From assembly GCA_008080815.1 (NCBI GenBank), contig VMDM01000042.1, positions 1-52,341 on the forward strand: a stretch of DNA of 52,341 bases, read 5' to 3'. The DNA is from Candidatus Nitrosopumilus sp. (lineage in GTDB: Archaea > Thermoproteota > Nitrososphaeria > Nitrososphaerales > Nitrosopumilaceae). The notes under the pieces are model-generated. The model did not search any database. It had not been told where the DNA came from and worked only from the letters and a program-made list of their open reading frames with translations. Shown here piece by piece: positions 49,680 to 52,341 of this stretch. How positions within the stretch are numbered: position 1 is the first letter of the stretch; the number at the start of each line of letters is the position of its first letter. Made by a program: the position numbers and the translations under genes.

Positions 49680-50504
49680 TTGAAATTTCTAACCAGTGGA
49701 AAAGTTAAAGATCTTTACGAGTTTGATGATGACCACTTAATTTTCAAATTTTCCGACAGAGTATCTGCATATGATGTAAAATTTAAACAAAATATTCCTA
49801 GAAAGGGTGAAGTCTTGTGTAAATTTGCAGAATTTTGGTTTAATGAATTACCTGTATCAAATCACTTTGTAAAGAGAACTTCGGAAAATGAAATTTTGGT
49901 AAAGAAGATGAAGATGCTTCCAATTGAATGTGTGGTACGAGGATATTTTTATGGTAGTTTAGTGAATCGTTGGAAAAATGGCGAGATAAAACTTCCTGAT
50001 AATACTGATACTCAAATGGCAGCAAAGTTAATCCAACCACTTTTTGATCCTACAACAAAATCAGAACATGATATTCCAATTGATAAAACTAAAGCAATCG
50101 ATATGAATTTGGTAACTGTTGAGCAATACGAATCACTTGAAAAAACTTCTATTGACATTTATAATAAAATGAGTAGTATTGCAGATGAATCGGGATTCAT
50201 TTTAGCCGATTTAAAACTTGAATTTGGATTACTTGATGGGGAAATCACACTTGGTGATTCCATTGGTCCAGATGAATATCGTTTATGGCCAAAGGATTCA
50301 TTTCAAATTGGAAAAATTCAGGAAGCATATGACAAACAAATTCTTCGTGATTGGTTGACTAGTAATGGATATCAAAAACAATTTGATGATTCACGTTCTA
50401 AAGGATTAGAGCCAATCCCTCCAGAAATTCCATCTGAAATAATTTCTAAGATGACAGAAAGATATGTCCATGCTTTTGAGAGAATTTCTGGTAATTCTCT
50501 TTAG
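49680..50504 (+). CDS. purC: SAICAR synthetase PurC
   Basis: A 274-residue enzyme that condenses CAIR with aspartate. SGKVKDLYEFDDDHLIFKFSDRVSAYDV, MLPIECVVRGYFYGSLVNRW and GFILADLKLEFGL are the family's ATP- and substrate-binding motifs; GPDEYRLWPK is the late signature. The start is TTG at 49680, where the N-terminal strand begins; there is no in-frame ATG. It completes the local purine block, although purP is 22 kb away and purM, purD and purB are not seen. Confidence 0.95.
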   Translation: MKFLTSGKVKDLYEFDDDHLIFKFSDRVSAYDVKFKQNIPRKGEVLCKFAEFWFNELPVSNHFVKRTSENEILVKKMKMLPIECVVRGYFYGSLVNRWKNGEIKLPDNTDTQMAAKLIQPLFDPTTKSEHDIPIDKTKAIDMNLVTVEQYESLEKTSIDIYNKMSSIADESGFILADLKLEFGLLDGEITLGDSIGPDEYRLWPKDSFQIGKIQEAYDKQILRDWLTSNGYQKQFDDSRSKGLEPIPPEIPSEIISKMTERYVHAFERISGNSL

Positions 50505-50670
50505 AATTGATTGTTTGTTGACTAATAGTCAAGTTTCAACTCGAATTAGTTTTTTCTGATTTTCCCAATATCTTACTGATTTAGTACATTTTCCTAACAC
50601 TGTCCCAAAATCACTGATTTTTTGATAATTTATTATATTTTTGATAATACTACCATTTGTTTAATATCGT
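50505..50670. other. AT-rich gap with a 15-base palindrome
   Basis: No gene is visible here. At 50518-50532 is TTGACTA-A-TAGTCAA, a perfect 7+1+7 palindrome 13 bases after the purC stop. The rest is AT-rich without repeats. The palindrome could end the purC transcript or bind a regulator; there is no strong T run after it. Confidence 0.4.
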
Positions 50671-50760
50671 TACAATAAACATTGTAACGGATACAATAAA
50701 CATTGTAACGGATACAATAAACATTGTAACGGATACAATAAACATTGTAACGGATACAAT
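50671..50760. repeat. Four tandem 21-base repeats, each a dyad, plus a partial fifth
   Basis: Four exact units start at 50671, 50692, 50713 and 50734, followed by six bases of a fifth (50755-50760). Each unit contains TACAAT, AAAC, ATTGTA, so each is a self-dyad. The first is strongest because upstream bases extend it to CGTTACAAT / ATTGTAACG (9+9). The 21-base period equals two helical turns, so all sites face one side of the DNA. They lie 106-195 bases before an ArsR-like gene. An operator array is the likely role; iterons are an alternative. Confidence 0.92.
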
Positions 50761-50833
50761 TTTTTTAAAACACTACGAAAATTTTTGAAATTAAAAAAAA
50801 TTGATGCGATTAGACAAAAAAATATGATACAAG

Positions 50834-50846
50834 GATCTTTTAGATC
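50834..50846. promoter_or_regulatory. GATCT-TTT-AGATC palindrome over the expected TATA position
   Basis: A 5+3+5 perfect palindrome centred about 26 bases before the ATG at 50866. The TTTTA in its middle is the only TATA-like element at the right distance for a leaderless start, so this may be promoter and operator together. Confidence 0.4.
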
Positions 50847-50865
50847 ACTTTGAAAATGAAATTGT

Positions 50866-51366
50866 ATGTCAACTCTGCTAGAAAAGCAAATCAAAGTAAA
50901 TCGTATTGTTACGACAAATGTTGAACAGGCACGTGCAATTGAAGACCCTGTACGGGCAAAAATTGTAGAACTTCTTTACCGACAAGCAATGTCTGCAGAC
51001 CAAATCGCAACCGCGCTTAAAAAATCCGGACATAAAAAAGCGCTTACAACAATTCGACATCATATCGAGATTCTCAAAGAATCAAATCTAATAGAAATTG
51101 TCAAAATAGAAGAGTCCAGGGGTGCAATCACAAAATTCTACGGAACATCGACGAAATTGCTTGACTTTCAGACGCCCGATGATTTTGAATCAAAATATTC
51201 AAAAATCATTGATAACACCTCTACCAAAATCGAAAAAATCCTCAAAGGATTAACTCCAAAAACTTCAACAACCAAAGGCAAAAAATCTGAAGAATATTCA
51301 CAATATCTCGTAATGGAGATAATGAACAGAGCAATGACAAATGTGTTTGAAAACTCTGGAAAATAA
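50866..51366 (+). CDS. ArsR-like winged-helix regulator
   Basis: A 166-residue DNA-binding protein. VEQARAIEDPVRAKIVELLYRQAMSADQIATALKKSGHKKALTTIRHHIEILKESNLIEIVKIEESRGAITKFYG (about residues 19-93) is an ArsR-type helix-turn-helix: the recognition helix is near LTTIRHHIEIL and the wing is EESRGAITKFYG. No Cys metal-sensor pair is present. The C-terminal half is helical and charged. Four 21-base dyads and a small palindrome lie immediately upstream, which fits autoregulation. The beginning of the gene uses more CG-containing codons than its neighbours. Confidence 0.85.
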   Translation: MSTLLEKQIKVNRIVTTNVEQARAIEDPVRAKIVELLYRQAMSADQIATALKKSGHKKALTTIRHHIEILKESNLIEIVKIEESRGAITKFYGTSTKLLDFQTPDDFESKYSKIIDNTSTKIEKILKGLTPKTSTTKGKKSEEYSQYLVMEIMNRAMTNVFENSGK

Positions 51367-52196: not shown

Positions 52197-52341
52197 CTAT
52201 CGTCTTCGTTTAGCTGCAGTTTTTCTCTTTGGAGCTGCTTTGCGTTTAGCTGCAGTTTTTCTCTTTGGAGCGGCTTTGCGTTTTGGTGCTGCCTTTCTCT
52301 TTGGAGCTGCTTTTTTAGCTGCAGTTTTTCTCTTTGGAGCG
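52197..52341 (-). CDS. Lys/Arg/Ala-rich protein, histone H1-like tail (partial)
   Basis: The C-terminal 47 residues of a gene whose start lies beyond the window edge. The peptide repeats A-A-P-K-R-K and T-A-A-K-R-K and ends KRRR, giving over 40% Lys and Arg. Such tails in histone H1, in chlamydial and bordetellal HU-like proteins and in some archaeal chromatin proteins wrap or bridge DNA. At DNA level the units are near-identical (GGAGC-TGC-AGTTTTTCTCT type on the plus strand). The N-terminal domain cannot be seen, so the protein family is open. Confidence 0.78.
   Translation of the reverse strand, partial: APKRKTAAKKAAPKRKAAPKRKAAPKRKTAAKRKAAPKRKTAAKRRR

Follow-up and report, generated by a model that had tools for sequence, protein, structure and literature searches.

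Genes and features at the locus

The window analysed here, a stretch of 52,341 nucleotides, is contig C5 of a 1.07-Mb MAG (52 contigs, 87% complete) whose closest named relatives are mostly Nitrosopumilus. Between purC and the gene of an ArsR-like winged-helix regulator, both on the forward strand, it contains a perfect tandem array of short dyads and a strongly conserved core promoter block:

49680–50504, forward strand: purC (SAICAR synthetase; Pfam E 1.1e-68), the upstream neighbour, outside the operator
50668–50689, no strand assigned: first dyad, 9+9, CGTTACAAT AAAC ATTGTAACG (sequence and inverted-repeat search)
50671–50760, forward strand: TACAATAAACATTGTAACGGA four times plus a partial TACAAT, probably the homogenised form of an ancestral operator array (sequence, Tandem Repeats Finder, register shared with relatives)
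50774–50779, forward strand: TACGAA, a degenerate half-site apparently remaining at the ancestral register −51 (sequence, relatives)
50797–50846, forward strand: core promoter block AAATTGATGCGATTAGACAAAAAAATATGATACAAGGATCTTTTAGATC, strongly conserved when orthologous upstream regions are aligned
about 50822–50828, forward strand: TATA-like AATATGAT in the core block, the putative TATA
50834–50846, no strand assigned: GATCT-TTT-AGATC dyad (GATCTTTTAGATC), flanked by the putative TATA and by the transcription start predicted near 50849–50853 (alignment)
50866–51366, forward strand: ArsR-like winged-helix regulator gene, 166 aa, whose product is the probable array binder and which is probably itself regulated (Pfam, Foldseek, profile matches to PH1932)

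The array is built of four identical 21-bp units followed by a 6-bp partial fifth, and Tandem Repeats Finder (TRF) assigns it a period of 21, 100% matches, a score of 180 and 4.3 copies, a number that may be under-counted because the assembly is a MAG. Two dyads alternate along it, TACAAT-AAAC-ATTGTA inside each unit and ATTGTA-ACGGA-TACAAT over each unit junction, so that half-sites follow one another at spacings of 10 and 11 bp in alternating orientation and therefore all lie on one helical face. At the array the half-site phasing score is 17, against a maximum of 2 in the rest of the window and of 4 in a 320-kb sample of two relatives, which places the array far beyond chance. The original prediction, made from the letters of this DNA, had described four identical 21-base units with the first dyad extended to 9+9, about 195 bases before an ArsR-like gene, and all of this is accurate: the array starts 195 bp 5′ of the ATG at 50866. 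The junction dyad was not part of that description. Only one array in the window has a higher TRF score, at 52207–52340, and it is protein-coding. The end of the window (52197–52340, minus strand, continuing past the window end) encodes a lysine/arginine/alanine-rich tandem repeat protein (APKRKTAAKK...) that resembles a histone H1-like tail.

The 166-aa protein exceeds the Pfam cut-offs for HTH_20 (E 2.7e-9, 37.3 bits, cut-off 27) and HTH_5 (ArsR; E 5.9e-6, 26.5 bits, cut-off 22) and has Foldseek matches to CzrA, SmtB, HlyU and PH1932, which together place it in the ArsR-like winged-helix superfamily. Its nearest structures by Foldseek are Kfla_6221, PH1932 and Phr, and a profile search with the protein agrees in matching PH1932 (E 5.6e-9). 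The AlphaFold2 model has a mean pLDDT of 73.6, with values of about 87–93 in the winged helix and 45–75 in the C-terminal part, and only the winged-helix part is a reliable structural match since the full-length rms deviations are large. Four residues of the predicted recognition helix, T62, R64, H65 and H66, are invariant across 33 homologues, and the translation contains no cysteine.

Conservation and register of the array

The comparison covered the sequences 5′ of 28 orthologues in related genomes and of 80 named loci from Nitrosopumilus, Nitrosarchaeum and relatives. Most of the 80 orthologous loci carry a degenerate array next to the regulator gene, in which TACNAT and ATNGTA half-sites alternate, one per DNA turn, at 20–21 bp per dyad. 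Among 23 relatives, counted without the window and without the second strongly expanded array, half-sites of the same orientation are spaced by 20/21, 40/41 or 60 bp and convergent ones by 10, 30/31 or 50/51 bp, with z up to 21. The phasing on one helical face that had been proposed for the window alone is thereby borne out in its relatives, and the dyad does accompany orthologues in related genomes. Taken individually, array phasing is significant in 76 of the 80 sequences at p<0.05 and in 68 at p<0.01 (against first-order shuffles), and a score of at least 6 is reached by 52 of the 80 arsR upstream regions versus none of 3,440 control regions (320 kb, two relatives; control maximum 4), all of these locus counts being inflated by relatedness, as the relatives are not independent. 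Two members of a different family within the order, whose proteins are only about 42% identical, score 4. An EM search for the half-site motif was too permissive (about 458 sites), and the spacing tests were used instead.

The arrays also share a fixed register. When positions are counted from the T of the core-block TGATA (position 0), TAC half-sites pile up at −173, −153, −133, −113, −92 and −51 in 71 aligned promoters and GTA half-sites at −120, −79 and −58, giving an ancestral pitch of about 20.4 bp per dyad. TAC half-sites of the window, at −154, −133, −112, −91, −70 and −51, match this register, the last of them being the degenerate TACGAA, at a position where 42 of the 71 relatives have a TAC half-site. 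This agreement suggests that the perfect array replaced older sites while the register stayed unmoved. Sites such as GGTACAAGGGGGATGGTAGC persist in a GC-rich relative (L032, L123), so that selection on TAC/GTA is indicated and not an effect of base composition. A distant orthologue from a GC-rich region (L033 of genome G030, 49% identity) has no core promoter block; its phasing score closer to the gene is 0, and an AT-rich island with TAC/GTA-like half-sites can be seen by eye about 250–330 bp 5′ of the start codon.

Perfect repeats at this position are not confined to the window. In several other species there are perfect or near-perfect local duplications with a unit of 20, 21 or 41 bp: TRF on the upstream regions returns 6.0 perfect 41-bp copies at L087 (same genome as G022), 2.6 perfect 21-bp copies at L101, 2.4 perfect 20-bp copies at L060, 2.2 copies at L097, a local duplication of 2.1 copies at L079 and about 5 imperfect copies at L117. 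As the units differ among species, most of these duplications probably arose separately at the locus. The original prediction had read the repeats as a recent expansion with possible copy-number variation; this holds between species, where repeat number and unit differ, and fails for the array itself, which the comparison indicates to be ancestral and conserved in most of the Nitrosopumilaceae relatives examined, with only its perfection appearing to be recent.

Association with the arsR promoter

Both the array and the core block belong to the arsR gene. Gene order is conserved, purC being upstream of arsR in all 75 loci with enough flank, and in six loci where about 300 extra bases displace purC from arsR the array stays with arsR, which together with the fixed register supports the original proposal that the sites are tied to the promoter of the regulator. 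The core block lies just 5′ of the start codon, with the half-site row upstream of it, and occurs as a single copy, always at arsR, in each of ten genomes tested. At three mismatches it was not found in ten other genomes that have no orthologue or a highly diverged one, several of these being incomplete MAGs and the pattern being too strict for a GC-rich one, where a diverged block is in fact present (L032). Within the block, the GATCTTTTAGATC dyad is near-unique in its own genome; in the relatives L055–L134 the palindrome is found just 5′ of the start codon with a conservation equal to that of coding sequence, and in distant relatives its symmetry weakens and it decays to a CTTTTAGCT-like core. 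It may serve as a further operator or as a start element.

Outside the locus the dyad is rare. The relaxed pattern TACNATN4ATNGTA is not enriched elsewhere in seven genomes (27 matches versus 35 for a reversed-pattern control), whereas several matches cluster at the arsR locus in the window genome, G007 and G036; the repeat is thus not scattered over unrelated positions, an outcome that would have spoken against a role at this promoter. A longer tandem pattern at orthologous intergenic positions is restricted to the arsR locus, bar one DnaJ-like site in two species. The lack of enrichment elsewhere points to a dedicated local factor, and a genome-wide regulon of the dyad is unsupported. Exact TACAATN4ATTGTA has one further occurrence in the genome of the window, in the interval that separates an Hsp20-like gene from a divergent gene of 222 aa (L001 1501–1516; G000:C4:48947–48962); it lies just 5′ of the start of the 222-aa gene, a possible second target. 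The DnaJ-like site is a conserved TACGGTAATAATTGTA dyad directly 5′ of the gene (L042 and L049, around 1501–1526).

Operator model and alternative explanations

What could such an array do? That it is an operator is well supported, and on the sequence evidence we consider it fairly probable that it is a multi-dimer operator to which the ArsR-like protein would bind cooperatively on one face of the DNA, regulating its own gene. In the mechanism we propose, some six or seven dyads in a row, each TACNAT followed by ATNGTA, would present one half-site per turn on a common face of the DNA, their distance to the core promoter being constant, and dimers of the encoded winged-helix protein would most likely bind neighbouring dyads cooperatively. 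The resulting nucleoprotein row or wrap of about 100–140 bp would then set transcription of the protein's own gene, an autoregulation with a steep response to concentration. We infer that repression is more likely than activation. With the array 5′ of the probable TATA, simple steric repression is not obvious, but upstream wrapping could repress by analogy with the switch from positive to negative autoregulation of Ss-LrpB (PMC2995911), and possibly a wrapped complex extending from many upstream sites reaches the promoter at high protein level. In the window, four identical copies of a single site would have taken the place of the degenerate ancestral ones through local duplication or conversion, with the register kept.

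Against this model stands the small number of well-conserved positions per site, and a regulator other than the ArsR-like protein could recognise the dyad. The arsR operator might, for instance, be bound by an Lrp/AsnC-type protein, with arsR as its downstream target, an arrangement that fits the imperfect palindromes, clustered at distances of two or three turns, and the DNA wrapping that are typical of archaeal Lrp-type proteins (PMC2995911). We nonetheless regard it as unlikely, as the array is tightly linked to arsR and the missing enrichment in seven genomes would be odd for a regulator that is encoded elsewhere and has other targets. Considerably less probable is an architectural or replication element that happens to lie beside arsR, for instance a terminus, segregation or chromatin-positioning site. 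The pitch near 10.2 bp per half-site and the iteron-like repeats would suit such an element, and purC, array and arsR are found at 43–48% of the chromosome from cdc6, in the terminus half, in five closed genomes (G006, G007, G013, G022 and G036). This map position is explained by conserved gene order, however; the sampled GC and AT skews have no consistent break at the array, and both the fixed register to a gene promoter and the tight linkage to arsR speak against an element of this kind. The sign of the AT skew changes within tens of kb of the locus in G007 and about 100–150 kb off in G006.

There is very little to suggest a function at the RNA level, in which the repeats would form successive hairpins in a transcript. 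Each unit of the window could fold into a hairpin with AAAC as its loop, but over 206 distinct dyads the complementarity between halves is close to what base composition predicts, without covariation, an Rfam search gave no match, the array is located 5′ of the probable TATA and its spacing follows the DNA helix. Each half-site thus seems to be recognised independently, and the absence of covariation, the helical pitch and the position upstream of the probable TATA favour a DNA operator. It is scarcely credible, finally, that the array is a functionless tandem repeat, arisen by chance or by assembly or as a coding repeat of seven residues: 21 bp is a multiple of three and open frames cross the array, yet dozens of species have degenerate arrays in register, and the mixed 20/21-bp pitch of the relatives breaks any reading frame. 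We retain autoregulation by the ArsR-like protein through a phased operator as the favoured reading.

Ammonia-oxidising archaea are abundant and globally important; our literature search found no mapped operator for any of their regulators, and nothing relevant describing the array in Nitrosopumilus. The arsR locus offers a concrete promoter with dozens of natural variants for tests of cooperativity, helical phasing and copy number, including the two extremes of four perfect 21-bp and six perfect 41-bp copies. A regulatory array that is homogenised while holding its helical register is also a natural experiment in how arrays of binding sites are maintained.

Comparison with known systems

With the ArsR/SmtB metalloregulators the protein shares the winged-helix fold and an HTH_5 match above the Pfam cut-off. 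Autorepression is common in that family, and its usual operator is of the 12-2-12 type, to which the present array does not belong. A metal-sensing ArsR/SmtB identity was rejected, given the cysteine-free translation and a score of 24.8 bits for NF033788 versus an NCBIfam cut-off of 55. With the Phr/PH1932 family it has in common an archaeal ArsR-like winged helix with a C-terminal helical extension; members of this family are among the best structural matches (2p4w and 1uly), with identities over the match of 24–26% to PH1932 and 14–15% to Phr. Phr is an autorepressor whose operator overlaps the start site, in contrast to the upstream array described here.

MsvR, an ArsR-like redox autoregulator of methanogens, binds TTCGTAN4TACGAA boxes in its own promoter (PMC3729527). 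It has the ArsR-like winged helix in common with our protein, and in most relatives the junction dyad is ATTGTA-N4-TACAAT, the GTA-N4-TAC geometry of the MsvR box (gap of 4 in 135 of 241 junctions), with differing flanking bases. MsvR promoters have two or three boxes, however, unlike the long phased array at arsR. An identity with MsvR was likewise rejected: the profile match of 30.1 bits (cut-off 220) covers only the winged-helix part, Pfam gives no V4R hit and cysteines are lacking. The profile is moreover unspecific: it also has matches in E. coli and B. subtilis, and unrelated ArsR proteins, including others in this genome, match it more strongly. The parallel in geometry is suggestive only, as the protein is not MsvR.

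In layout, the nearest counterparts are archaeal Lrp-type regulators, which bind clustered imperfect palindromes in their own control regions with centres two or three helical turns apart and dimers on one face of the DNA; in Ss-LrpB, three dimers wrap about 100 bp, and autoregulation switches from positive to negative (PMC2995911). To call an array of sites unusual for a single archaeal regulator, as the original prediction did, is therefore too strong, since Lrp-type regulators also use clustered sites (PMC2995911). The arsR array resembles theirs in having several imperfect palindromes 5′ of the regulator's own gene with centres separated by whole turns (20/21-bp pitch, fixed register). In contrast, the linked protein here is ArsR-like, with no AsnC/Lrp match among its Pfam hits, and the array has more sites (six or seven), is continuous, keeps its register family-wide and has been homogenised repeatedly. 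More tentatively, it may represent an undescribed, family-wide class of archaeal operator, in which an unbroken row of at least a dozen half-sites, one every ~10.2 bp in fixed register, would carry an ArsR-like filament or wrap and would be rewritten time and again into perfect 20-, 21- or 41-bp satellites with the register kept.
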